Origin: Astropecten irregularis
Lineage: Eukaryota; Echinodermata; Asteroidea; Paxillosida; Astropectinidae
DNA: 64,000 nucleotides
Reading direction: 5' to 3'
Assembly (NCBI GenBank): GCA_963971285.1
Contig: OZ020244.1
Coordinates: 33,108,001 to 33,172,000 of the forward strand
The notes beneath the pieces were generated by a model, which had not been told where the DNA came from, did not search any database, and saw only the letters and a list, made by a program, of their open reading frames with translations. Shown one piece after another: positions 2,868 to 53,341 of this stretch. Position numbers and translations under genes: made by a program. How positions within the stretch are numbered: position 1 is the stretch's first letter; each line of letters opens with the position of its first letter.

Positions 2868-4587
2868 CTTCGGTACCCTTGTCAGCTAGCTGAGAGTCCT
2901 GAGGATTGTGACGATCTGTTTGAGATAGTCTGTCACCAGATCATTGGTGGATCTGCTATGTCCTATCTGAAAATCAATCACCTTGGAGGATATAACGAGG
3001 ATATAACGTACCCCAGATATAGGACAAGACAGTTATTTCATCTTGTACGCTAAAAGAACTGACCATTTTCTGTGTGACTGTAATTTCGCATCACTTAAAA
3101 CATGGGGCATTCTGACGTGCACGTCAATGCTTGTACATACTACATGTACATGTACTTCTGCAGAAGCCAGTGTAGCGTGCAAAGAGAGATACGCATATGG
3201 TTCATATCCGACATGTTCTAGAGCTTGTGCTGTTTTGACAAGGTGCGTGTGTGCAATGGGGCTTGACCAGGAGTTGAGGACCCTATGAAGAGGAGTAATA
3301 CATGCAAGGAACATTCATGTTATAGCTGAACGGCAAAAACATAAACATGCTGGAAAGACATCAGGAAACGACCACCATCAGGATGTAATAGGATTTACAT
3401 ACAAGTCAGGCCATGTTATAATTGGCCTTATGGAATGATAACCCTTGAAGATAATAAAACCGCATCTCAGACAGGCAAGGGGAAAACACCCCCCCCCCCT
3501 CCCACCTCCTCACCAGGGCTGCGACAAATTAACAAAACAAAAACCCATCTAAACACACAGCTCAACCACCCACCTACAAACAAGATAGCTAGATAGAGTC
3601 GGGGGGAAAAACAATGACTGAAAAATCCAGGGCAATATCATTCGCTCCTGCATGACTGGCCATCTCATCTCAATTCAATTCAATTTAATTAGATTCCAGT
3701 TCAACACTTTATTTCTACATCGCTGACAAATGGCGCATACATAACATCACTTTCAATCAAATCGATGTCAGAATAACATGTATGTAGTAGTCCCAGTTTG
3801 CAAAATGGGGCGACAAAAACAACAGGGAGAGATTTTAATCTGTACATTATTATTTTTTTTCGGTACATGAATGTCGGGCAAAATGTTTGTCTATACCGTA
3901 GGCAATCATGACTATACACATGTAGGCTCTATCGGTATTTATTACCGTTATCAATTTGAAAAAAGAAATTAGAATAATGTGCTTGTTTTGGATGGAGTGC
4001 TTCCTTTGAGATATTGCTTCAATAAACCATCTCTAGCAGAAAGAGGAAGGAAGAATGTAGTCTTTAATTTGCAAGATGACTCACTCGACATCATTAGCGA
4101 TGGAATGAGAGATGCTGATGGAGTTTTAGAATAGATGATGACATCCGCAGCATGCAGGCTACGTACCGTACTCTGTGGCATGACATAATATACATGCCCA
4201 TGACGTTATCTCCGTCATTGGAAATCAATGAACTTCACACAAAGTTACCAGCTATGTTAATCCCACTTTAGATTCTATTGACCGGACTGTCCGGACATTG
4301 CTAACAGCTAAAACACAATGTGTGGTGTCATATGTTCATACAATTCCCCGAGCGTTTGTATTATCTTTGTTTTAATTGCAGAAAAACTTAAGTCTTTAAT
4401 AACAAATAAGTGATTATTTTTAACTCAGGGTGGATGTGCCAGGTTTGAGTGGAATGACATACATTAATTTCATTGTGTATTGATTGATTTGCTGTGAGGA
4501 TGTGCTGTTTTCACTTTTTGATCCCGTGTTTTCAGGATGGAAAAACGGGCTGTGATTCTGTGGGTCTGGTTTGATGTACAGTACCCA
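2868..4587. other. Noncoding stretch, no gene recognised
   Basis: This stretch holds TACATGTACATGTA-type sequence near 3136, a C tract near 3489 and CAATTCAATT repeats near 3672. A plus-strand frame of about 54 codons ending with TAG near 4130 has a plausible amino-acid mix (for example NVVFNLQDDSLDIISDGMRD). It lacks a good upstream splice acceptor, so I do not call it a gene. Confidence 0.4.
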
Positions 4588-5104
4588 TTGCTGAGATGTG
4601 GTGTGCCTACAGTTTGGGTGTTGCGTACCCATAATTTGAGTGAAGTGTACCCATGGTCTGGGTGTGGTGTACCCATGTTTTGGGTGTGGTGTACCCATGA
4701 CTTGGGTCTGGTGTATCCATGGTTTGGGTCTAGTGTGGCCATGGATTGGGTAAAGTACACCCATGATTTGGGTCTGGTGTACCTATGGTTTGAGTATTTA
4801 AAGATGCATCCATAGTTTGGGTGAAGTGTACCCATAGTTTGGGTCTGGTGTGGCCATATATTGAGAAAGGTGCACCCATGGCTTGGGTGAAGTGTATCCA
4901 TAATTTGGGTAAGGTGTAACCATGGTGTTGAAGAATACCCATGGTTTGGGTGAGGTGTACCCATAGTTTGGGCCTGGTGTGACCATGTATTGGGTAAACC
5001 ACACCCATGGTTTGGGTCTGGTGTACCCAAGGTTTGAGTATTTAAAGATGCACCCATGGTTTGGGTGAAGTGTATACCCATAGTTTGGGTCTGCCATACC
5101 CGAG
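4588..5104. repeat. 22-bp minisatellite (ACCCATGGTTTGGGTCTGGTGT)
   Basis: About 22 units follow each other with a basic period of 22 bp, built on ACCCATGGTTTGGGT plus CTGGTGT, GAAGTGT or similar endings. A longer motif (TTTGAGTATTTAAAGATGCA followed by the same units) occurs at 4789 and again at 5033, giving a higher-order period of 244 bp, about 11 units. Because 22 is not a multiple of three, repeated 22-residue peptides appear in several frames on both strands, including a 203-codon minus-strand frame. I regard these as by-products of the repeat, not genes. Confidence 0.92.
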
Positions 5105-21400: not shown

Positions 21401-21760
21401 AAGGTAAGAACAGGATTGGTAACATACCAAAACAGAAATGTTCACAGATTTACGTATATTACTTTCAGGGTATGAAGATGGTGCCTGGTAGAAACATACT
21501 TTTAAAATGTTCGCCTAAAATGGTGTATTTATCCAGAAATTAGTCAAACAAAGACCAAAATCAATTTTGATCTCAGGGTAAGATCAAAACCATTTTTTGT
21601 GTTTCATAAGAAAAACTGAGTTGGGTTTTTGCTATTTTCTTGTGACTCAGATGTCCGAATGAGTTCAAATTTTCACAGGTTATTTCATGTACATGTTGGA
21701 TTAGACAAAGTGTGAGCGCTAGCTGTTCTGTGACCTTTACCAAACATGCATTATACCTTT
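21401..21760 (+). repeat. Family A TIR element copy
   Basis: It starts TTAAAGGTAA and ends TACCTTTAAA. The middle contains ACCAAAACAGAAATGTTCAC, AGATTTACGTAT, GGGTATGAAGATGGTG and TCCAGAAATTAGTCAAAC, all shared with the copies at 43253 and 47078. The 3' third is the most diverged of the set. It is non-coding. Confidence 0.8.
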
Positions 21761-26349: not shown

Positions 26350-28528
26350 TTAGTCCTGTGTTGGTAGTGTCCAAACTTGTCAATTACTTGACTTAATAAG
26401 AAATATATGTGAATCGCCTGGATTCACTACACACCCAGACACATTTGCACTACATGTACTGTGATTCTCATATTATACCGGTACTCCTTGACTTTTTCTC
26501 GACTGAAGTTGAGAATTTACATAATGTGCCACCGCATCAGCCATCCAAATGGCCTCAGTCATCTTGCAAGGGGTGTATGTATATGCCTTGCAAGAGCATG
26601 ATGATTCAGGAGATCCAAGCCAGAACGGGTTCCATCCATACAACCTGTAATTGTCTCACCCCATGCCTTGGCAGTGTCAAAGACACTCAACCAGGCGTGT
26701 GTTAACATTCTAAACACCATCTCCACATCTCTCACTTCCCTAACAGAATAACCAAGAGTGCTTCATAAGTTTATCGCAATTCTCAGACCTTTTTAAATCA
26801 GGGTGGGGAGTTTTTTTTTTTCTTGCCAGATTTTATCATTCCTTTGCGGCTCGACTTTATGCTCATGAAGCGATCACTTCAGGTGGTTGCGGTTCCAACA
26901 GTTCAGAATACACACATGATACCTCATATGCCTTCAAATTCATCACAAATGTGAGAAGCAGTATCACAACAGCATACAGAGATACAGCTCAAACTACCGT
27001 ATACTGCATAAACCATACACTTCCCGTTTCACTTCAAAATCACCCTCTTTTCATCTCTTAAGGACGTCTATTAGTGACAGCCATCAAATTACTTCTCTTT
27101 TGTTTTGGGGAAAAAGCTCTCATTTCTGCTCTTTCAGTATCCATGGTGATGACAGGCTTTGTGCTCCGTGTCCTGTGCACTGTTTCCCCAATAGAAGCAC
27201 GTCATCGTCGTGGATATAAATTTGAGGAAGGCACTGCCGTCGGCGGCTTGCCTGACCAAGCACTTCTATTGTCACTCATTATTTAATGAGATGATGTTCT
27301 GCCTTGTGCTGTTATAATGAAAAATTTAGGCTGGGTAAACATGGTGCCTGACTCCCCCCCCCCCCCCCCTCCACATACACACACACAAGAGAAGAAAATC
27401 AACAAAAAGGCACAATTACTGACTACCCTGTATTTTCTGGTCTCGCTTTTCTGGAGAGAGATATTGATATATTAAAAAACATGAGTATGAGAATGGAAAT
27501 TATGATAATTGTCAGTGTTCTATTGACAGGTGGTAATATTGTTATAATAAAACATTGTAATAATAACTCACTCTGCTAAGTTAGAGGGAATTTCAAAAGG
27601 TTTGTGCACAAATTTTTAATACTTAACCTATTTCAAAAAAGCCTGAAATTGATAAAATCATTGCAAATAAATTGGACACCAAACATATTTCCTACAAAAG
27701 GTGTTTGTCAACTTAGGGCAGAATCAAACATTTCCTCCTTACGTCTGATTTCACCCTAACATAGACTTATATAGCAAACCGTTCCCCCCCCCCCACCCCA
27801 AACGTAGCTTTTAACAATACAATATTATCATTATTATCATATGAAGGCAGTTTTCATGTTCATTTAACAAAATCTTAGCACTGGACTCAACAGTTCATAA
27901 ACAGTGCAAACAGTCACCATGGGAAATCTTGGTTCATCAGATGCTGGGTTTTTCAAGGAAATCAAGATTTGGTGTCTTTTCCAAAGATTATTTAACATAA
28001 TTTCGACAGTTAACTCATTTTTCATAACTATAGGTTTGGTGTGCTTAGAACATTTTGGCTTGGCTACTTTACAAAACTACAGTTTATGACGATCAAAGAG
28101 CCTGGAAATCAAAAAGTCAGCCAGCAAAACCTTATCCTGCCTATGAACTAAACAACATCCACTGATGCCCGTATGGACTGCCAGTCAGGCACGTACGCTG
28201 TGCTGCACTTAGAATGTATCAACCTTGCATCTGTGGCCCTTTCTTGAACCACAAAAAAACAAATCAGGGTCTTGCAAAGTGACGAGGGACTTTGAATGAC
28301 CGGTATAAAACATGCATGGGCCTCCTCCAGACCCTGCATAAATGTATTGGGTTGCTGGAGTTGTAAAGAGACTTTGCAACTGGTACACTTCGGATTGCTA
28401 CTTTGTAATGCTACCGCACAGTGAGTCAAGTGTTCCATTTCCACTGATACTACCGGGGTTCGGAGCACAGCAAAGTCTACAATGCAAGGATGGATTGGAA
28501 GAGAACAACAACAGCAAAGATGCAACTT
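26350..28528. other. Noncoding stretch, no gene recognised
   Basis: The stretch contains C tracts near 27354 and 27785. No gene, RNA or element termini are recognised. Confidence 0.45.
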
Positions 28529-28887
28529 AAAGGTACTATCATACTTTGGTTGCATACCGAAACAAAAAACTCCACAGATTTACCTATAACTTACAGGGTA
28601 TAAAGATGGTGATGGTAGAAACATACTGTTAAAATGTTTCTGCCTAAAATGCTGTATTTGTCAAGAAAAGAGTCAAACCAATGGCCAACAAATTTTGATC
28701 TTTGGAAAATCAAAATGCTGAAAAGGTTTTTTTAAATACTGTGGCGGTTTATCACCATTTCCTCAAAAAGTGGGCACTGTGTGGGACTGGGAATTTCACA
28801 GTTGACTGTTACTGTACAGTATTTTCCTTGATATTTTTGCCCATGAATCTGCATTTCTTCGACCAAAACGAAAGTATATTATCTTTA
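28529..28887 (+). repeat. Family A TIR element copy
   Basis: It starts AAAGGTACTATCATACTTTG after TTAA-type sequence and ends with the inverted, diverged AAAGTATATTATCTTT. It has the full set of body blocks (ACAGATTTACCTATAACTTA, GATGGTGATGGTAGAAACAT, CTCAAAAAGTGGGCACTGTG, TTCCTTGATATTTTTGCCCA). This is one of the more complete copies. It is non-coding. Confidence 0.85.
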
Positions 28888-39085: not shown

Positions 39086-40005
39086 AGTTTTATTGCGTGA
39101 GTTACAGGTATATACAAATAAAATGCTTCACACTTTTTTTGCAACACGTTGCTGGCAGGTGAATACAAATCTCCAATTGTCATGTAAGACAGCTTGGGGA
39201 ATATTAGATTCAGCAGTGCCAGTGTCCGCTTAGAGAATACTCATCAACGGCAAAATGTTGAAAGGGAAAGTCTCTTGCTATTCCCAATGCACCTCAACTC
39301 CCTCAATAAAATCTTCGCGTGACCTCCTCCCCCAACACTTCACCGTTGAAAAAGAAGCTTTTCTTGCATAATGTGAAAACCGTAGACTGTTAATAGCTGC
39401 ATGATGTACGTTAAGTTCAAGTTAAATGTTTTATTTTGAGAGGGGTCCTGCACTGTGAAGACTGCAGGCTCAAACAGTGTAGAGTGCTTATTGTGCAAAT
39501 CTCCAGGGCACTCTAAAAAACGTCTGCAGACTTAGCCCGGTACGGAGACAAAAACAATCCGCTAAAAACCTTTTCAGTTTGTTTGTCGACAGCACGGACT
39601 GTGCACTCTCCAGTCATGCACGACATTATGCACAAGACAACTGTAAGAACTCTGCCATTCATCTTGGGAAGGTCACTGACGGAAGGTAAATTTCAGCTTT
39701 TACAGTTGAATGGTTTAAGGTAGTGGGGGTAAACATCCCTTTCAAAATGGTCTGAAGGCCAATTTCCGTAGTTCTGAAAAATAGAATCCACTACTGTACA
39801 ATGAATATAATTGCTTTTCATTGCTCCAGTCCAGCAAGGTTTCTATTCATCGCTTTCAATAAAAAGATACATGTATGTAACACACAAGTTAAAAACAAAA
39901 TAAGCAGGTATGAGGACATGCACGGAGAGTCGGAGACATTTTCGAATTAGCTGTATGCCATTGAACTTGAAATAGCATCCATGGACAGATTCAAGAGCCT
40001 GCTTT

Positions 40006-40336
40006 AAAGGTACTATCATACTTTGGTAGCATACTGAAACAGACATCTTCACAGATTTACCTATATTTTACAGTGTATAAAGATGGTTAAAGTAGAAACA
40101 TATTGTAAATTTTCTGGCTGAAATGCTGTAGAGTAAAACCAATGACCAAAAAGAACAATTTTTATCTTTTAAAGATCCAAAATCACGGTGAAAAGAGGCA
40201 ATTTTTCAGTTTTCTCAAAAGGGGGGCATCGTATGGGACTGAAAATTGCATAGATGACTGTTCCTGCATCTCCCTTGATATTTTTGCCCAAGAATCTACA
40301 TTTCTTTGACTAAAACCAAACTATGACATTAACTTT
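40006..40336 (+). repeat. Family A TIR element copy
   Basis: It starts AAAGGTACTATCATACTTTG and ends ACCAAACTATGACATTAACTTT. It contains the shared body blocks in order, with a short deletion after the AATGCTGTA block. It is non-coding. Confidence 0.83.
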
Positions 40337-42837: not shown

Positions 42838-42900
42838 ACACTCTGTAATCTCTTCTGTGAGAGTGTGTGGTTCTGAGAAGAACCGGTGGTATTATCTCGA
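42838..42900 (-). other. Repeat with histone-mRNA-like stem-loop, copy 1
   Basis: Read on the minus strand, GGTTCT-TCTC-AGAACC (42884-42869) has the 6-bp stem and 4-base loop geometry of the replication-dependent histone mRNA 3' end. It is followed by ACACACT and a purine-rich CAGAAGAGATT, reminiscent of the histone downstream element. No histone coding sequence lies upstream on that strand. The segment, including GGTTTGCGGTGACAC at its other edge, recurs at 45797. Confidence 0.4.
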
Positions 42901-43252
42901 CGTTAGTGTGCTCTGTTCGTCCTCAGGAGAGTAACTCCTGCATTTTTGAAACATATGTCGGATTCTCTTTCAGTTTTGTTTACCTAATATTGATGGCAGA
43001 CACAAGCCGAATTCAGACCGAGCCCAGCCCACTCCATGTCATCCATGCATCGAGGTCTACCAGTACTCCCTTGGGCAAGTTGAATGTTGGTGGAAACTCT
43101 GTAATCCCCAACTCCCTCCTTCCACCAGAGCAAAAAAGACTAAAAAAATGAAGTTATCAACCATACACTGAGCATCATCCGGACATCCAGACATAGCATT
43201 TATGCTGCAGAGTGCAGACCATTCCCACATGTTACCCGCAGTGAACAGGGTT

Positions 43253-43607
43253 AAATGTAGTATCATACTTTGGTAAGAAACCAAAACAGAAATGTTCATA
43301 AATGTACGTATAACTTATAGGGTATGGAGATGGTGCTGGTAGAAACATACCGTTAACATTTTTCCACTTGAAATTGTGTATTTATCCAGAAATTAGTCAA
43401 ACAACACCCGAAAATCTTTTTGATCTTTTAAAAGATCAAAAACAAAAGAGAAAAGACTTAAGAAATACTTAGGCCATTTTTCACGATTTTCTTTAAAAGT
43501 GGGCACCGTATGGGACTGAAATTTTCGCAAATGACTGTGACTGTATCTTCCTTGATATTTTTGCCCATGAATCTGTACTTCTTTGACAAAAGTATGATAT
43601 TACCTTT
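43253..43607 (+). repeat. Family A TIR element copy
   Basis: It starts AAATGTAGTATCATACTTTG and ends AAAGTATGATATTACCTTT. The body is closest to the DIRS-interrupted copy (ACCAAAACAGAAATGTTCA, TCCAGAAATTAGTCAAAC). It is complete and non-coding. Confidence 0.87.
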
Positions 43608-46600: not shown

Positions 46601-46673
46601 ACAACCTGAACACATATTTTCCTATATTTTATGTTCCATATACCAGATGGTGTTCCACTGATAATATTCAGAT
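43608..46673. other. Noncoding stretch with features listed separately
   Basis: No gene is called. A plus frame starting near 44545, after the acceptor ATTATTTCTCAG (ends 44539), is open to 44952 and includes TALDLSADGVLGSVFLYM; no domain is recognised and it contains a G-rich repeat stretch. A CCGGCCCGG-rich patch lies near 44136. Confidence 0.35.
45797..45860 (-). other. Repeat with histone-mRNA-like stem-loop, copy 2
   Basis: On the minus strand GGTTCT-TTTC-AGAACC (45846-45831) matches the histone stem-loop including its UUUC loop. It is followed by ACACATC and then CTATGAAAGAGATTA, similar to the purine-rich U7 snRNA target. The flanks match copy 1 (GGTTTGCGG-GACAC about 45 bp away). No histone frame is present upstream on the minus strand. 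Confidence 0.42.
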
Positions 46674-46880
46674 AACTCAATATTATACATACTCCAAAAA
46701 GACTAAGGGAAGCCATTTTTAATTCTATATTTCGTTCTTTATTCAGAACATCTTTTGTTCTTTATTCAGGAATGAAGATGTTCTGAATAAAGATCAAAAT
46801 ATGTTCTGAATAAAGAACAAAATATAGATTCAAAAATGGCTTCCCTTATAGTCTTTTTGGAGTATGTATTATATTGAGTT
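46674..46880. repeat. 207-bp palindromic MITE-like hairpin
   Basis: The left side (AACTCAATATTATACATACT, CCAAAAAGACTAAGGGAAGC) is inverted at the right (GGGAAGCC reversed, CTTTTTGGAGTATGTATTAT, ATTGAGTT). Four TTCTTTATTCAGAACAT-type units in alternating orientation fill the centre. The arms differ by only a few bases. It is non-coding. Confidence 0.85.
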
Positions 46881-47077
46881 ATGTTCCTTTTATCGTCTTT
46901 CTTTCCTAAAATAATTATGATCCTTATGCTTCTATTTCACTCTGAAACATTTCTTTACATCCGAAACAAAATTTCTCCAAGAAAAACAGAAGGACACAGG
47001 AGACCCTGCTAGAATCAACAACAAAGCTCAGATTGGTGAGCAGTTTACAAGAGATACATTGACATTATTCTTTTTTT

Positions 47078-47206
47078 AAAGGTAGTATCATACTTTGGTA
47101 AGGAACCAAAACAGAAATGTTCACAGATTTACGTATAACTTATACAGGGTATGAAGATGGTGCTACATGTATAGAAACCTACCCTTAAAATGTTTCAGAC
47201 TGAAAT
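47078..47206 (+). repeat. Family A copy, left part, split by DIRS insertion
   Basis: It starts AAAGGTAGTATCATACTTTG and runs through GAAGATGGTG to TTTCAGACTGAAAT, where the DIRS element begins. The missing remainder resumes at 53342. Confidence 0.92.
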
Positions 47207-47230
47207 CCCCCCCACAGAAGTGTGGTAGGG

Positions 47231-47384
47231 GTCTACGAACGAGTACTTACCTGTAGAGCCACTACTTATGCATATTTCCCTAGACCGTCAGGTATTCACG
47301 CTAAGAATAGATACAACAGCGCCCCCTATCGGCCTACCCACAGTGCCCCGCGGCATGAATGCCACGTAAGCGTCCTCTTTTCTC
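47231..47384. repeat. DIRS inverted terminal repeat, 3' side of element
   Basis: From CTTACCTGTAGAGCC (47246) to CTTTTCTC (47384) it is an exact reverse complement of 53187-53325. The outer part (GTCTAC plus nine bases) is only partly shared. Beyond it, 47207-47230 is unique to this end and matched only by the ICR. Confidence 0.95.
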
Positions 47385-47440
47385 GGTTGAACTCAGGCGG
47401 AATGCCCAAACATCGAGAATAGTGGGGAGGAGGGGGGGAT

Positions 47441-47538
47441 GCTCTACAGGTAAGTACTCGTTCGTAGACCCCTACCACACTTCTGTGGGGGGGAGTCTAC
47501 TTCACTCGTCTTACCTGTAGAGCCACTACTTATGCATA
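47441..47538. repeat. DIRS internal complementary region
   Basis: 47441-47493 (GCTCTACAGGTAAGTACTCG ... GTGGGGGGG) is the reverse complement of the element's outer 3' end at 47207-47259. Directly joined, 47494-47538 (AGTCTACTTCACTCGTCTTA ... TATGCATA) is the reverse complement of the other outer end up to 53341. In DIRS elements this region is thought to template completion of the ends into a circular intermediate. Confidence 0.95.
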
Positions 47539-47890
47539 GACTGGCACCGGCAAAAAGGCGGTGGGTATGCGAGATGCTATTGTATACGGGAAGGGGCACT
47601 GTCAACAGCGCAAACCCCGGCAAAGCCAGCGCACCCAGAGAGGGTATGGTAGGTAAGCCGAAAATAGGGGCTCTATGCTTCCAAGGCCTAAGAAGCCAAA
47701 GCCTCAGCAAAAAGGAACAGCCAAACGCGGGCCCGACAAGGATCCCGCGAAGGGTGAAAGTCAACGCCCGCCGCGCCAACCTTGCACGGCAGGGAAGAAA
47801 TAAGGTTAAAGACAAAAACCTGAGTAATGACATTGTCAAAGGAAGGCAAAATGTACAAATGAAGAGCAGGAACAAAATGAGGGGACTCAC
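47539..47890. other. DIRS 3' untranslated region
   Basis: This lies between the recombinase stop and the ICR. The open frame on the opposite strand (47532-48002) is a composition shadow. Confidence 0.7.
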
Positions 47891-49243
47891 CTATTGTTGT
47901 GAGGTCCTTGGGGGAAGCGGGTCACGGGATGCAGATCTGGCAGCCGCCTCCAGCACCGCTCTCCCTGTCCTGCCCTCTGACTGGAGAACATCCTTCAAGT
48001 AACACTCCGTAAAGGTGTTCGGGGTCTTCCAGCATGCAGCCTGGACGATATCACCTATAGAGATACCCTTAAAGAAGGCCCACGAGGTGGAAGCCGCCCT
48101 GATATCATGCGCCCGGGCTGAGCCGGTCGCTCCTGCAGGCGGCGCATGCGAGGATGCGTTAATAGCCGAAACTAGCCAGCGAGCGATTGTGTCGCGAGAA
48201 GCTGGTCCATACGGCGGGGTCGTTGAAATGAAAAGTTGGGAGCAGGTCGCCCTGAGCGACTTGGTCCGATTAATGTACCACTTAAGGGCCCTGACAGGGC
48301 ACCACAGTTTGTCGTCCGGGACGGACGAGAAGGACTTGATGTCCGGAACAAAGATATCCGGAGGGGAGAAAGACTCCGACTGATTCTTTGTTAAAAACCC
48401 AACCCTCGGGATTAGGCGGACACCTCCTGGCTCCCATCGGATGTGGCCCGTCTCTATCGAGAGGGCATGAAGTTCGCTACGTCGTCTGGACGTAGCGACA
48501 GCCAGCAAGAACGCAACCTTCATCGACAGGTGCAATAAGGTGGAACCACCCAGAGGTTCGAACGGGGAGCTAGACAGCGTGGCCAACACGCTAAATAGAT
48601 CCCACGCAGGGACAAGCCTGCGCGTCGGGGGTCGTGACACAAACATACCCCTGAGCAACTGTTGAAGGGCTTGGTTGTCCGACACTGAGGACCCATCCGG
48701 GAAACCTCTGTGGACAGCTGCTATGGCCGATCGGTAGTTCTTAATCGTAGAGGACGCGAGGTCGCTCTCGAAAAGATACACAAGAAAATCCGCAACCTCC
48801 CCTACAGAAGTATTGGGGGGATGCAAAGATCGGATTCGGCACCATTTGGAAAAATGACGTAATCTGCTGTCATAGATTTTCCTGGTGGAGGCCCTGCGGC
48901 TACAGGCTGCAATGGCCGTAGCTCGCTGTGAAAGGCCAGCTGCGCGGAGGGATTGCTTGACAGCACCCAACACGTCAAGTGGAGATCCTGCGGAGCCGGG
49001 TGAAGAAAACCCGAGCTCGGCTGGAGCAGAATGTCCGCTCTCTGCGGAAGAATTACTGGCCGATGAACCAGAAGTTTGGTCAGCCTCGGAAACCAAGGTT
49101 GACGGGGCCAGAACGGCGCTATGAGGAGGATCTTGCAATCCTCCTGTTCTAGCTTTGTCACCACGCGAGGGATGAGAGAGAACGGGGGGAAGGCGTAAGC
49201 CAACAGCCCGTCCCACCGTATCGCCAGCGCGTCTGTCTGCCAT
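47891..49243 (-). CDS. DIRS tyrosine recombinase (YR)
   Basis: The enzyme would integrate the circular DNA intermediate of the element in place of a DDE integrase. With the ATG at 49243 the product is 450 residues. The frame is open upstream to 50779, but that part is a shadow of the RT gene. The N-terminal core-binding region starts near residue 119 (STRKIYDSRLRHFSKWC). Catalytic residues are visible: Arg about 254 in TSRRRSELHAL, a candidate Lys about 286 in FLTKNQ, His and Arg about 379 and 382 in HDIRAAST, Trp about 405 in AACWKTP, and the nucleophile Tyr about 415 in ECYLKD. It overlaps the RT/RNase H ORF by about 440 bp in another frame (a -1 step relative to ORF2), so it could be made from its own start, by frameshift, or from a spliced or downstream-initiated message. 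Stop TAG at 47891-47893. Confidence 0.93.
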   Translation of the reverse strand: MADRRAGDTVGRAVGLRLPPVLSHPSRGDKARTGGLQDPPHSAVLAPSTLVSEADQTSGSSASNSSAESGHSAPAELGFSSPGSAGSPLDVLGAVKQSLRAAGLSQRATAIAACSRRASTRKIYDSRLRHFSKWCRIRSLHPPNTSVGEVADFLVYLFESDLASSTIKNYRSAIAAVHRGFPDGSSVSDNQALQQLLRGMFVSRPPTRRLVPAWDLFSVLATLSSSPFEPLGGSTLLHLSMKVAFLLAVATSRRRSELHALSIETGHIRWEPGGVRLIPRVGFLTKNQSESFSPPDIFVPDIKSFSSVPDDKLWCPVRALKWYINRTKSLRATCSQLFISTTPPYGPASRDTIARWLVSAINASSHAPPAGATGSARAHDIRAASTSWAFFKGISIGDIVQAACWKTPNTFTECYLKDVLQSEGRTGRAVLEAAARSASRDPLPPRTSQQ

Positions 49244-51018
49244 GCTCGAGGATCGGGGGCCCTCGTGCAGTAGACCGGCAGCTGGTGGTTGTCGTGAGAT
49301 GCAAACAGATCGACATGAGGACGATCTATCAGCCGGAAGAGAGACTGAGCAACCAGTGGATGCAGCGACCACTCTGTTGGTCGAATCCATCCCCTCGAGA
49401 GGGCGTCGGCGGCGGAGTTCTCCTCGCCTGGGAGGTGAACCGCCGAGAGAGTCACACTGTGACGTAAGCACCACTGGAAGATGGTCCACGTGATCGCACA
49501 CAGCTGGGCGGACCGCGTGCCTCCCTGACGGTTGATATAGGCTACCACGGTCGTATTGTCGCAACGGATTAGAACCGATCGACCCGTCACGGAGGACTGA
49601 AAATGCTGGAGAGCGTTGGAAACTGCCAGCATCTCGAGCACATTGATGTGACTTGAGCGATGATCGGGGCCCCACCGGCCCGCCACTTGGCGTGGGTGGA
49701 GGGTGGCCCCCCAGCCAGAAAGTGACGCGTCTGTGGTGATGGTCAGAGATGGGTGGGGTCTGCGAAAAGCACGGCCCGCCATGATGTTCGACATGTCCAG
49801 CCACCAACGAAGGTGCGGGAGCAGCCAAGGAGTCACTGGCACGGAGAGACTTAAGCGATGAAGCTTTGGCCGGTACAAGGAGAGCAGGTGTAGTTGGATG
49901 GGGCGCATCCGCAACCTGCAGAAATTCACCACGTCTACTAGACTGGCCATAAGGCCCAGCAGTCTGAGCCAAGCGACCGCTGGGGCCGCTGAAACTGGAA
50001 GAAAAAGGGACACGCACTGGTGGAGGTTCAGCATGCGGTCCCACGTAGGACGGGCCAGCCCAGCCCGAAGGTCGAGAGACGCTCCCAGGAAGTCTGGGGA
50101 CTGGGAGGGACACGGACGGGACTTTTCCACATTGACGATAAACCCGAGGTCCTCCGCGAGGCCCCAGGTGAGGTTGAGTGCCGCCACCGTGGCCTCGCGG
50201 GATTGACCCACGATGAGCCAGTCGTCGAGGTACATGAACAACATCACGCCCTGTCTCCGCAGGGCAGCCCCGAGTGCCTTTACGACTCTGGTAAAGACTC
50301 TGGGCGAGGTGGAAAGGCCGAACGGGAGAGCCATGAACTCGTACATGATGTCCCGGTATTGGAAACGTAGGAACTTCCAGTGATCCTGTCTGATAGGAAT
50401 GTGGAGGTATGCGTCCTTCAGATCTATGCTTGCTCCCCAAGCTGGAGTCCGGATGGATTGGAGAATAATCTTCAGCGTATCCATACGGAAGCGACGAGGT
50501 CGAATGAACCTGTTGAGGGGTTTCAGGTTTAAAATCGGACGCCATACCCCGACCTCCTTCTTGGGGACCAGGAAGAAGGTTGACATGAACCCCGAATGCG
50601 GCTCCCCTTGGGGAAGCATGCGGATCGCCCGCTTCTCGAGGAGGGATGTTATTTCCGACTCGAGAGAGCGGCGCTTGGAAGCATCGTGCGGCACTGGTGT
50701 GGGCCGAACGAGCATGTCCGACGGGGGGGTGTTCGTGAACTCGAGCGCATAACCGCGGGAGATTGTGTCGAGCACCCACCTGTCGGACGTCACCTGAACC
50801 CAGGACCCTGCGAATACCTGGAGCCGGCCTCCCACGGGTCCCAAGGCGGGAGGCCTGCAGGAGACGAGCGAGTCACTTACGCCTGGCCCCGGTGGACCGG
50901 GGGCCGGGCGTGAGATAACCACGTCCTGACTTCGGTTGTTGGCGCCATGCGGTGGCAGCCTGGAGCTGCGTGGGGCGGGCCGAAGGCGAGGTGGTCGTAC
51001 GGCCACGAAAACTACCAC
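48802..51018 (-). CDS. DIRS reverse transcriptase / RNase H
   Basis: It copies the element RNA into DNA and degrades the template. The frame is open for 738 codons up to 51018, where the first codon is GTG. The first ATG is at about 50715 (residue 102), just before the conserved region, so translation may start there or by a +1 shift from the overlapping Gag ORF. RT: fingers and palm from about residue 115; SIDLKDAYLHIPI (Asp about 199), LPFGLSTSPRVF (231-242) and FMYLDDWLIVG with YLDD at about 263-266. RNase H: TTDASLSGWG (Asp about 430), LEMLA (Glu about 462), RCDNTT (Asp about 487) and AADALSRG (Asp about 538). A C-terminal segment VDLFASHDN...YAFPPFSLIP...APFWPRQPWF is typical of DIRS/Ngaro polyproteins; in DIRS this region has been compared with a Dam-like methyltransferase, which I cannot confirm here. 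Stop TAG at 48802-48804. Confidence 0.95.
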   Translation of the reverse strand: MVVFVAVRPPRLRPAPRSSRLPPHGANNRSQDVVISRPAPGPPGPGVSDSLVSCRPPALGPVGGRLQVFAGSWVQVTSDRWVLDTISRGYALEFTNTPPSDMLVRPTPVPHDASKRRSLESEITSLLEKRAIRMLPQGEPHSGFMSTFFLVPKKEVGVWRPILNLKPLNRFIRPRRFRMDTLKIILQSIRTPAWGASIDLKDAYLHIPIRQDHWKFLRFQYRDIMYEFMALPFGLSTSPRVFTRVVKALGAALRRQGVMLFMYLDDWLIVGQSREATVAALNLTWGLAEDLGFIVNVEKSRPCPSQSPDFLGASLDLRAGLARPTWDRMLNLHQCVSLFLPVSAAPAVAWLRLLGLMASLVDVVNFCRLRMRPIQLHLLSLYRPKLHRLSLSVPVTPWLLPHLRWWLDMSNIMAGRAFRRPHPSLTITTDASLSGWGATLHPRQVAGRWGPDHRSSHINVLEMLAVSNALQHFQSSVTGRSVLIRCDNTTVVAYINRQGGTRSAQLCAITWTIFQWCLRHSVTLSAVHLPGEENSAADALSRGWIRPTEWSLHPLVAQSLFRLIDRPHVDLFASHDNHQLPVYCTRAPDPRAWQTDALAIRWDGLLAYAFPPFSLIPRVVTKLEQEDCKILLIAPFWPRQPWFPRLTKLLVHRPVILPQRADILLQPSSGFLHPAPQDLHLTCWVLSSNPSAQLAFHSELRPLQPVAAGPPPGKSMTADYVIFPNGAESDLCIPPILL

Positions 51019-53035
51019 GAGTAGACGCCCCGAGGGGGCTACGACGGGGAATTACAAATGACGGCTTGCCCCTGCCTCGAGGCGCCTTGGGCGCGGAGGG
51101 CTGGGGGCGCTTGAGATTGATTTTCTCGGTGGCCTTCAGTCTCTTAGCCTCGGCCTGCATGAGTTCTTCAAACTTCCCAGCAAAGAGGTCGTTCCCCAGC
51201 AGGGGAAGAGCTTCGAGCCTCTTACGAGCGCCTTGGGACGGGAGAAAGAGAGCATCCAGCACGTTGCCCCTACGGGCCGAGGTTGCAAGGGCGGACACAC
51301 GGGCGAACTGGCCAAGCACCGACTGGAGGCCATTATCGAGGCAATGAAAGGCGGCCCTCAGCATGTCCGGAGGGACTGGCGACTCTTCCTCACAACCAGA
51401 AACTAAGTATTCCGTGAGGAGAAGTAAAAAGGAGGCCGCGGCCAGGCCATGGCGAGAGGCGGTATCCAACTTCTTCAGCGTATCCTCCAGCGTATTGCGG
51501 GACTTGTCCGCGAAGGGCCGCTTCGCCGAGGGGTGCCCCCCATCCGCTGTCAACTTGTCCTTCGTCGCATCGGAGAGAGATGGAGTGGCGAAGAACTTAT
51601 CCAAGTCCGATTTGGGGAAGCGGTAATAGCCTCTAGTCCGATTTGGGTAAGGCAACCACTTTTCAGTGGGGGACATAATCCCAGAGATCTTCTCAGCACA
51701 CACCTGATCCAAGGGGATAAGTGGGAAAACCTTGTCACCAGAAACAGCAACACCCGTTTTTCGCTTAAAGGATTTATGATCCGACTGAGGGGCCTCCTCC
51801 TCCGGTGGTAACTGAAGCACACGGATCATGTCCCGCTGTACAAGGCGCAGCTCCGTCTCGGCAATAGAGAGCCGTTGTAGCTGGGCCACGCCCTCATCGT
51901 CAGCAGAGCCGTCCGAAGAACGGGTAGACTGAGGAGAGCCAGGGTAATCCCCAGCGGCGGCAGGAGTAGGCTGGCCAGATGCGTGAGCCTGCGGTTGAAT
52001 GACCTCTTCAGACACAAGAGACATCGAGGGATGAAGGCTCAAAGCAGGAGGGGACGCGGGCGCACGGCTGACAGTGTGCGGCACGTCCCTTTGTGCCTGC
52101 GCCACCCAACCGTGACCAACGATCATCGCGGGGGTCACAGGGTCGGGTTGCTGGGTGGCGGGGCCCGTCTGGCGGGAGGCAGCAAGGGCCGATATCGAAG
52201 CCGAGATCGACTGGAAGGCCTGCAGAAATTCACCCCGTGAAACTACGTCATCGCCCTTGCAGCGTTTGCCGCGGCGAGACCGGGAAGAAGAGTCGCCGGA
52301 ACTCGGTGAAGAATCACGAGAACGGCGGTTCGATTTTTTCTTCTTCTTTCCCTTGGTCTTCGACGGACAACCCCGCGGGGTGTCCGAGGAAGAGTCCACT
52401 AGGGCCTGGGCCAACGGGACCCCGGAGCAACGGATGAAGTCCGAGGAACCCGATACGGCCGAGGCCGACGGGCCAGGGTAGGCCCAGGATGGGTCACCCG
52501 CACCGGCCACAGCCCGCCCGGCCAACGGCGCTTCGAGCCCCACGGGCTGAGCGTGCGTTGCACGGTCGGGTAGACCGGACAAAAGCCCGTCCCGGCAGCG
52601 CGTGGCGTCCGCCACCGTGCCGGGAGGGTGCACCGTGTCACTGGAGCCGCGGGGGTCAGTCGGCTTAGACTGCCCCGGGTCCATGGGTGCAGGGGGTGCA
52701 GGGCACACGGCCGAACCGCGTTTGCCCTGACGACCGCCCTTCTTCGGTTTGGCTCTGGCATAGGATGCTTGTTTTATGGTAACCTTTCCAGAGCCGCACC
52801 TACCGTGTACTTTCTTCGTTCCGTCAGAACTGACCACGGGTGGGGACCGTGAGAGGTCCCCGACCGGGCCGACGGAACTGCCCGCGCCTCCGACCGACTG
52901 AGGCTGACGGGCCGGGGACTGCCGCCCGGGTAACGGAGCGTACCCGGCGGAGTCCGTACACGAGAGCACGGATCGCACTGGGGAGTGGCTGTGCACCCCA
53001 GTATTTGCTGAACCGGCTCTATCGGAACGCTTCAT
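50873..53035 (-). CDS. DIRS ORF1, Gag-like protein
   Basis: 720 residues from the ATG at 53035 (the frame extends four codons further, to a TTG). It is presumably the particle or RNA-binding protein. The N-terminal third is proline-, serine- and glycine-rich and looks disordered. A lysine/arginine-serine tract lies at about residues 226-261 (KGKKKKKSNRRSR, SSSRSRRGKR). The C-terminal half is more ordered, containing LDKFFATPSLSD, a leucine-rich region (ASFLLLLTEYL) and then an RG-rich tail (GRGKPSF, SFRGRT). No CCHC zinc knuckle is seen. Position as the first ORF and overlap of 146 bp with the RT frame fit DIRS gag. Sequence-level homology to a specific Gag cannot be tested here. Stop TGA at 50873-50875. 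Confidence 0.88.
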   Translation of the reverse strand: MKRSDRAGSANTGVHSHSPVRSVLSCTDSAGYAPLPGRQSPARQPQSVGGAGSSVGPVGDLSRSPPVVSSDGTKKVHGRCGSGKVTIKQASYARAKPKKGGRQGKRGSAVCPAPPAPMDPGQSKPTDPRGSSDTVHPPGTVADATRCRDGLLSGLPDRATHAQPVGLEAPLAGRAVAGAGDPSWAYPGPSASAVSGSSDFIRCSGVPLAQALVDSSSDTPRGCPSKTKGKKKKKSNRRSRDSSPSSGDSSSRSRRGKRCKGDDVVSRGEFLQAFQSISASISALAASRQTGPATQQPDPVTPAMIVGHGWVAQAQRDVPHTVSRAPASPPALSLHPSMSLVSEEVIQPQAHASGQPTPAAAGDYPGSPQSTRSSDGSADDEGVAQLQRLSIAETELRLVQRDMIRVLQLPPEEEAPQSDHKSFKRKTGVAVSGDKVFPLIPLDQVCAEKISGIMSPTEKWLPYPNRTRGYYRFPKSDLDKFFATPSLSDATKDKLTADGGHPSAKRPFADKSRNTLEDTLKKLDTASRHGLAAASFLLLLTEYLVSGCEEESPVPPDMLRAAFHCLDNGLQSVLGQFARVSALATSARRGNVLDALFLPSQGARKRLEALPLLGNDLFAGKFEELMQAEAKRLKATEKINLKRPQPSAPKAPRGRGKPSFVIPRRSPLGASTRGSFRGRTTTSPSARPTQLQAATAWRQQPKSGRGYLTPGPRSTGARRK

Positions 53036-53186
53036 CGCACAACACAATACAACACAATAATATACAGAAGAAAACTACTAACTCTACACACGTTTATCCA
53101 AAAATACCTTTTATTAAGGAAAGAACTTCGCTTGCGTGAAAAAACACGGAGAGATCGAAAACACGTCTTTCCGCGCCTGACGCTAA

Positions 53187-53341
53187 GAGAAAAGAGGACG
53201 CTTACGTGGCATTCATGCCGCGGGGCACTGTGGGTAGGCCGATAGGGGGCGCTGTTGTATCTATTCTTAGCGTGAATACCTGACGGTCTAGGGAAATATG
53301 CATAAGTAGTGGCTCTACAGGTAAGACGAGTGAAGTAGACT
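53187..53341. repeat. DIRS inverted terminal repeat, 5' side of element
   Basis: It is the reverse complement of 47246-47384 without mismatch over about 139 bp. The last 16 bases (ACGAGTGAAGTAGACT) are specific to this end and copied only in the ICR. Confidence 0.95.

Follow-up and report, generated by a model that had tools for sequence, protein, structure and literature searches.

The window analysed here is a stretch of 64,000 nucleotides of the Astropecten irregularis genome (contig OZ020244.1, positions 33,108,001 to 33,172,000 of the forward strand), and on its minus strand lies a DIRS1-like tyrosine-recombinase retrotransposon which, as an element, is ordinary. Its parts, in window coordinates and in the order in which the element reads, are as follows.

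47207..53341, minus: complete DIRS1-like element of 6135 bp, left end at 53341 and right end at 47207; ends match empty paralogues
53326-53341, minus: left end beyond the identical ITR
53187..53325, minus: left ITR, identical part, 139 nt, 100% to right ITR
50873..53035, minus: ORF1, Gag-like, 720 amino acids from ATG; stop TGA, then CTC
48802..51051, minus: frame of RT, RNase H and MT, 749 codons stop to stop, +1 to Gag; Pfam and PDB matches
50842..50844, minus: presumed start codon of RT, here TTG
47891..50872, minus: YR frame, 993 codons stop to stop, same frame as ORF1 and open straight after the ORF1 stop
48802..50872, minus: YR frame stop-free across the RT gene, 0 stops in 689 codons, 16.7 expected (codon permutation)
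48805..49386, minus: MT domain, predicted class I methyltransferase fold
47891..49070, minus: part of YR with conserved amino acids, SAM-like domain plus R, H, R, W and Y
47494..47538, minus: left ICR (internal complementary region), complement of 53297-53341, 45/45
47441..47494, minus: right ICR, complement of 47206-47259, 54/54
47246..47384, minus: right ITR, identical part, 139 nt, 100% to left ITR
47207..47245, minus: right end beyond the identical ITR, divergent ITR and right extension

The original prediction, made from the letters of the sequence, had given this span correctly, to which the minus strand can be added, and its mismatch-free ITRs of about 139 bp measure 139 nt at 100% identity. 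Perfect 139-bp repeats 5.8 kb apart, together with frames of such length, exclude chance. The left and right ICRs overlap by one base, which is the circle junction, and ITRs combined with ICRs that meet at such a junction are characteristic of DIRS1-like elements. Membership of the PAT/Ngaro group was rejected, as split direct repeats are absent and the terminal layout is of the inverted ITR/ICR kind; only two pairs of direct repeats of at least 20 nt occur within the element, one of 29 nt, which that layout explains, and one of 20 nt.

The protein domains agree with this assignment. The RT frame has the Ty3-like RT and RNase H of DIRS1-like elements, with Pfam matches to RVT_1 (E 5.3e-19), RT_RNaseH (1.5e-5) and RVT_3 (1.8e-5) and PDB matches of the RT to 8r0s, the best (‘Enzymatic polyprotein’, E 3.8e-13), and to Ty3 (4ol8, E 7.3e-12; 7q5b, E 8.7e-12). 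A tyrosine recombinase takes the place of a DDE integrase, as indicated by Phage_int_SAM_1 in the YR frame (E 9.2e-5) and by R/H/R/W/Y in the sequence; against the PDB, the YR matches Cre weakly (E 0.077). The predicted RT YLDD and recombinase Arg/His/Arg/Trp/Tyr could all be located (YLDD at 50232, RRRSEL at 48487, HDIR at 48109, W at 48031 and Y at 48001), and we take these residues to have their usual roles in the window copy. ORF1 matched nothing in Pfam (E up to 10) or in the PDB (E up to 1); passages of PMC4495291 and PMC9210276 describe the Gag-like ORF1 of DIRS1-like elements as LAP2alpha-like in vertebrates.

A methyltransferase domain follows RNase H, as in other DIRS1-like elements, its fold being predicted. 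An FPP[F/I] motif (window 49191-49180) occurs in it in 14 of 14 aligned elements. N6-adenine methyltransferases have a (D/N)PP(Y/F/W) motif, and if FPP[F/I] corresponds to it, the MT domain may be a non-catalytic SAM-fold. The Pfam PCIF1 model matches 6 of the 14 MT domains weakly (best E 0.006). An early structure model of the domain, built on four close sequences, was discarded at pLDDT 40, and three photosystem chains found in the PDB with one MT domain (phmmer, E 0.9-1) were taken as chance matches.

Three other features of the window were recorded. An AT-rich nested palindrome of about 235 bp, MITE-like or a hairpin, adjoins the element at 46660-46894. A histone 3' stem-loop scores above the Rfam threshold at 42845-42889 on the minus strand; inspection by eye of the sequence just upstream revealed no histone-like frame. 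A 22-bp minisatellite (4612-5090; 21.4 copies, 65% matches) sits in a 213-codon open stretch of the minus strand.

When the right-end kilobase was used as query against the 476-Mb genome, 329 candidates were found, of which 40 were scored; the best identities among these, the window itself excluded, were 97, 97, 96, 96 and 95%. Loci were read at 25 of the 39 other sites (20 of 8.1 kb and five of 3.8 kb), and copy numbers are lower bounds. Family A comprises the window copy and L009-L015; the identity of L010-L015 to the window copy is 94.4-96.9%, and L009, which overlaps L010, was left out of the identity table. Family B (L016-L024, L026 and L028) is 86.8-87.8% identical to the window copy, family C (L025 and L027) 87.6%, and family D (L029-L033), which is decayed, 63-67% in aligned pieces. 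Near-identical copies, for which a search had been suggested, thus exist: the closest to the window element among the copies read are 3-6% divergent, and within family B four copies (L016, L017, L019 and L022) differ pairwise by 3-25 mismatches over 6.17 kb. The five family D loci retain right ends and an ICR that still match well, lack long frames within the 3.8 kb that was read and are possibly non-autonomous passengers. L009 and L010 are two 5'-truncated family A copies in the same orientation, 3.66 kb apart, probably a tandem duplication. A search of IMG/VR with the RT protein gave four stretches that fit a pattern, none of them confirmed as a relative.

All three frames are full-length in 7 of the 20 copies surveyed (the window copy and 19 others), namely the window copy, L011, L016, L017, L019, L022 and L027; L018 has a shorter ORF1, and in L013 the YR frame is interrupted by a stop 43 codons past the gag stop. 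The three uninterrupted ORFs ascribed to the window element are indeed open at full length, but the element is not intact in every respect, as it has lost the presumed start codon of RT. Where the window copy has TTG, 28 nt past the gag stop, all 17 of the other aligned copies of families A, B and C have ATG (L010 and L020 do not align at this codon and are outside the 17), and five D copies have GTG, at weak alignments. The next RT-frame ATG of the window copy comes 157 nt past the gag stop, within the RT stretch common to families E and F, described below. TTG is a weak near-cognate start codon, so RT may be lowered without being lost, and the window copy, having no RT ATG, probably makes little RT itself.

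The insertion is nevertheless young. The window copy has no mismatch between its own repeats (0/236; in this sum some bases are counted twice, since ITR and ICR overlap), as is also the case for L011, L016-L019, L022, L027 and L013 (0/235 in the last), while eight other copies have 1 to 9; L021, L015 and L010, in which one end is missing, do not allow the comparison. Changes private to the window copy, relative to L011, L013, L016 and L027, fall 11/2/37 at codon positions 1/2/3, and this third-position bias argues that most of them predate the insertion and arose under selection. The insertion site is within a dispersed repeat, and four paralogues of the target in the flanks of other loci span the insertion point unoccupied, for example CACC-A-TTTCAG in the L027 flank and CACC-A-TTTTAG in the L011 flank. 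Four further unoccupied paralogues lie in the window itself, at 43251-43567, where the alignment was read, and at 40003-40290, 21416-21564 and 28527-28688, each a single BLAST match spanning the junction. The single A of the empty site flanks the element on each side at the filled site, so there is no target duplication beyond one base, and insertion without target-site duplication is a further trait of DIRS1-like elements. The suggested check for an empty site is in this way answered by unoccupied paralogues of the target repeat, which are not the same as an empty allele. L019 and L022 occupy the same position of a ~217-bp satellite unit on different contigs, with adjoining units unoccupied, a possible target preference.

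Matching repeats, the distribution of private changes and the empty paralogous sites together support a recent insertion. That the element is a dead relic, kept open by chance and without recent activity, is hardly credible: the loss of the RT start codon and the 3-6% distance to the nearest copies would fit such a relic, and the 0/236 repeat mismatches, the third-position bias and the near-identical copies of the sister family speak against it. The original prediction of recent or current activity therefore stands for the lineage and was too strong for this copy, family B (~87% identical, with its four copies 3-25 mismatches apart) being the better sign of recent activity.

The feature that sets these elements apart is the reading frame of the recombinase. 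In families A, B, C, E, F and G, Gag and YR share one frame with a single stop between them and RT lies at +1, and the YR frame is +2 (= -1) relative to RT in eight overlap copies and in two further families, H and I. Over 689 RT codons the YR frame has no stop in any of the five A-C copies tested (the window copy, L011, L016, L022 and L027). Under a null model in which synonymous codons are permuted within each RT gene, 13.3-17.5 stops are expected in these copies, and 0 of 1000 permutations reach zero in each; the other frame of the same copies has 24-30 stops against 23.4-25.7 expected. None of the 90 AA/AG/GA codons of the window copy follows a third-position T, as against 23 of 190 other A/G codons.

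Further families were found with two RT proteins as genome queries, from which eleven elements and 13 short junction pieces were read. Families E, F and G, with one element each and RTs 58, 54 and 42% identical to that of A, again combine a shared frame of Gag and YR with 0 stops, where 12.8, 19.5 and 27.0 are expected. A comparison of 14 elements, all from one genome, was made without the final 130 codons of RT. No YR-frame stop occurs in the 551-557 RT codons of A, B, C, E, F, G and I (9.6-21.4 expected), and H has 4 against 24.1 expected; in H (L055) the YR frame is open from position 1349, ORF1 continuing into RT without the usual start. In the no-overlap elements J, K, L, N, O and P, where the YR frame overlaps only the end of RT, 43, 37, 38, 38, 46 and 42 YR-frame stops compare with 46.0, 45.9, 36.2, 38.1, 40.1 and 36.7 expected. 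Slightly low counts occur in the RT of K (16/1000 permutations) and in the Gag +2 frame control of L016 and L022 (31/1000 and 25/1000). Permutation, the other frame and the six no-overlap elements rule out chance or codon bias as the cause of the open frame; G+C differs between the two groups (0.48-0.60 with overlap, 0.39-0.44 without), and the permutation allows for composition. As A, B and C are close and O and P near-identical, the comparison amounts to about five or six overlap lineages (ABC, E, F, G, I, H) against five without. In the midpoint-rooted RT tree H and I group with the no-overlap elements (support 0.93-0.94), and this placement, if correct, implies more than one gain or loss of the overlap.

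An open frame of this kind might be kept for the protein that it encodes, but the data do not support this. Amino-acid identities in the YR frame and in the third frame are 0.306/0.283 for A-E, 0.283/0.287 for A-F, 0.287/0.281 for E-F, 0.194/0.232 for A-G and 0.801/0.792 for A-B, so that in 5/5 pairs, spanning 42-91% RT identity, the YR frame is below the third frame or within 0.023 of it; the same holds for 3/3 pairs among A, B and C. Conservation of the YR frame starts near element position 4272 (window ~49070). Being stop-free while its amino acids are not conserved, the overlap seems to be selected to be open and not for its amino acids. Fourfold silent RT sites change less in the overlap (0.20-0.22) than in Gag (0.33-0.36), so some extra constraint on the overlap is possible; at sites coding for YR alone the change is 0.19-0.29, the overlap being lower in 2/3 pairs.

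A frame that is held free of stops through the RT gene without conserved amino acids suggests that ribosomes probably enter it upstream of RT. That they cross the RT gene in the YR frame, which we regard as probable, is a firmer claim than readthrough of the gag stop, which we infer for six families as the simplest route into that frame. Under this reading, Gag would come from ribosomes that terminate normally, RT from ribosomes that reinitiate at an ATG shortly past the gag stop (A, B, C, E and G), and YR, as a Gag-linked product, from ribosomes that pass the gag stop in frame and then translate through the second frame of RT, the overlap stretch serving only as an open passage. The remaining steps would be those of the published DIRS model, in which the RNA is copied to cDNA, the missing cDNA ends are restored on the ICRs and the circle is inserted by the YR, at a one-base A core in the window copy. 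Taken whole, as a recent DIRS1-like insertion whose Gag, RT and YR arise by termination, reinitiation and readthrough, this is the explanation that we favour, if by a modest measure; the generalisation that the gag stop of long-overlap DIRS elements is a three-way switch (stop for Gag, reinitiate at +1 for RT, read through for Gag-YR) we hold to be evenly balanced.

The surroundings of the gag stop are consistent with this in part. In families A, B, C, E and F the stop is UGA-CU (7/7 E and 8/8 F copies), with CUC, CUU or CUG after UGA; in G it is UAG. According to an excerpt of PMC12233894, UGA followed by C favours readthrough, and passages of PMC4359377 give UGA-CUA as the strong context and UGA-CUU-G as a low control (0.27%); the strong UGA-CUA context is absent from the gag stops of the elements read. 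No stable RNA structure above shuffles was found past the gag stop (z -0.02 to 1.32, 4/4). An RT ATG lies at +28 in A-C (the window copy excepted), at +19 in E and at +1 in G. In F, 8/8 copies have no RT-frame ATG in the ~60 nt past the gag stop, the first in L035 being at +502, so this family needs another way to RT, e.g. +1 frameshifting. A counterpoint is L013, which has its early YR-frame stop in spite of repeats without mismatches.

Three other routes to the recombinase have to be weighed against readthrough. A -1 frameshift from RT into the YR frame soon after the RT start would suit the +2 (= -1) position of that frame, and in family I, where Gag, YR and RT are in three different frames, a frameshift or other entry is needed; passages of PMC5006619 also raise, for DIRS-1, the possibility that a +1 frameshift joins ORF2 to the YR domain, ‘not determined experimentally’. 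The whole frame need not be open for a shift late in RT, however, and in six families Gag and YR are already in one frame with one stop between them, which makes this route unlikely. Among the matches listed, judged by title, no paper dealt with readthrough of a DIRS gag stop.

Production of YR from a spliced RNA, with some other cause for the open frame, is less likely still. The splice-donor consensus GTAAGT is present at the end of gag in every aligned A, B and C copy except L014, and in A and B an AG with a pyrimidine tract ahead of the YR domain joins in frame; this AG reads GG in family C (L025 and L027), though L027 has three open frames, so splicing at that site was rejected, and with splicing an open frame through RT would not be needed. 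A similarly low probability is given to a start of YR at an internal AUG, by reinitiation or internal entry. The ATG at 49390, the only YR-frame ATG common to the six aligned A, B and C copies, could serve in this way, and a YR-frame ATG lies 32 codons past the gag stop in E and 22 codons past it in F. Upstream of 49390, however, the frame has 0 stops against 9.9-12.1 expected (0/2000 permutations in each of four copies), and the first YR-frame ATG past the gag stop comes after 235 codons in L027 (C) and 314 in G, with 6.2 and 13.4 stops expected before it, so an AUG start does not explain the open frame. In the no-overlap elements L051, L052 and L054 the first YR-frame ATG lies inside the stretch that matches YR, and recoding may give access to YR there too.

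The way in which DIRS elements translate a recombinase frame overlapping with RT is unsettled (for DIRS-1 see the relevant passages of PMC5006619), and the contrast between seven stop-free elements and six with about the expected number of stops points to ribosomes that cross RT in a second frame. Readthrough at the gag stop, the reading preferred here, names that stop as the place where the mechanism can be tested, in a genome with a very young DIRS lineage. If the three-way switch is true, the RT gene would be held stop-free in the Gag frame only for the crossing of ribosomes, and the recombinase would be carried into particles as a Gag fusion.

As an element, the window copy resembles GaDIRS1/2, TnDIRS1a and XtDIRS2/3, for which Table 3 of PMC3266345 lists lengths of 5.3-6.2 kb, ITRs of 102-148 bp, right extensions of 26-34 nt and ICRs of 36-46 and 56-65 nt, and it shares with the long-overlap elements of that source the order Gag, RT-RH-MT and YR with a long overlap. 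It differs from the elements described there in its junction, with one shared base instead of three, and in its ends, AGT...GGA instead of NTT. Complete young DIRS copies are already known in vertebrates: DIRS-37_XT, of the recently active DIRS-like families of Xenopus tropicalis described in passages of PMC9210276, includes copies that retain every ORF, the ITRs and the ICR, and its amplification peaked very recently, so that it matches the young complete copies seen here in a different host and family. The founding member, DIRS-1 of Dictyostelium discoideum, has overlapping RT and YR frames, ITR and ICR as here, again in another host. DIRS1-like elements without the overlap (e.g. AcDIRS1) belong to the same superfamily, and six of them, from about five families, were sampled in the same genome; their RT has about the expected number of YR-frame stops, unlike that of the window element, and what is new is the stop-free YR frame, identical with that of Gag, through the RT gene.
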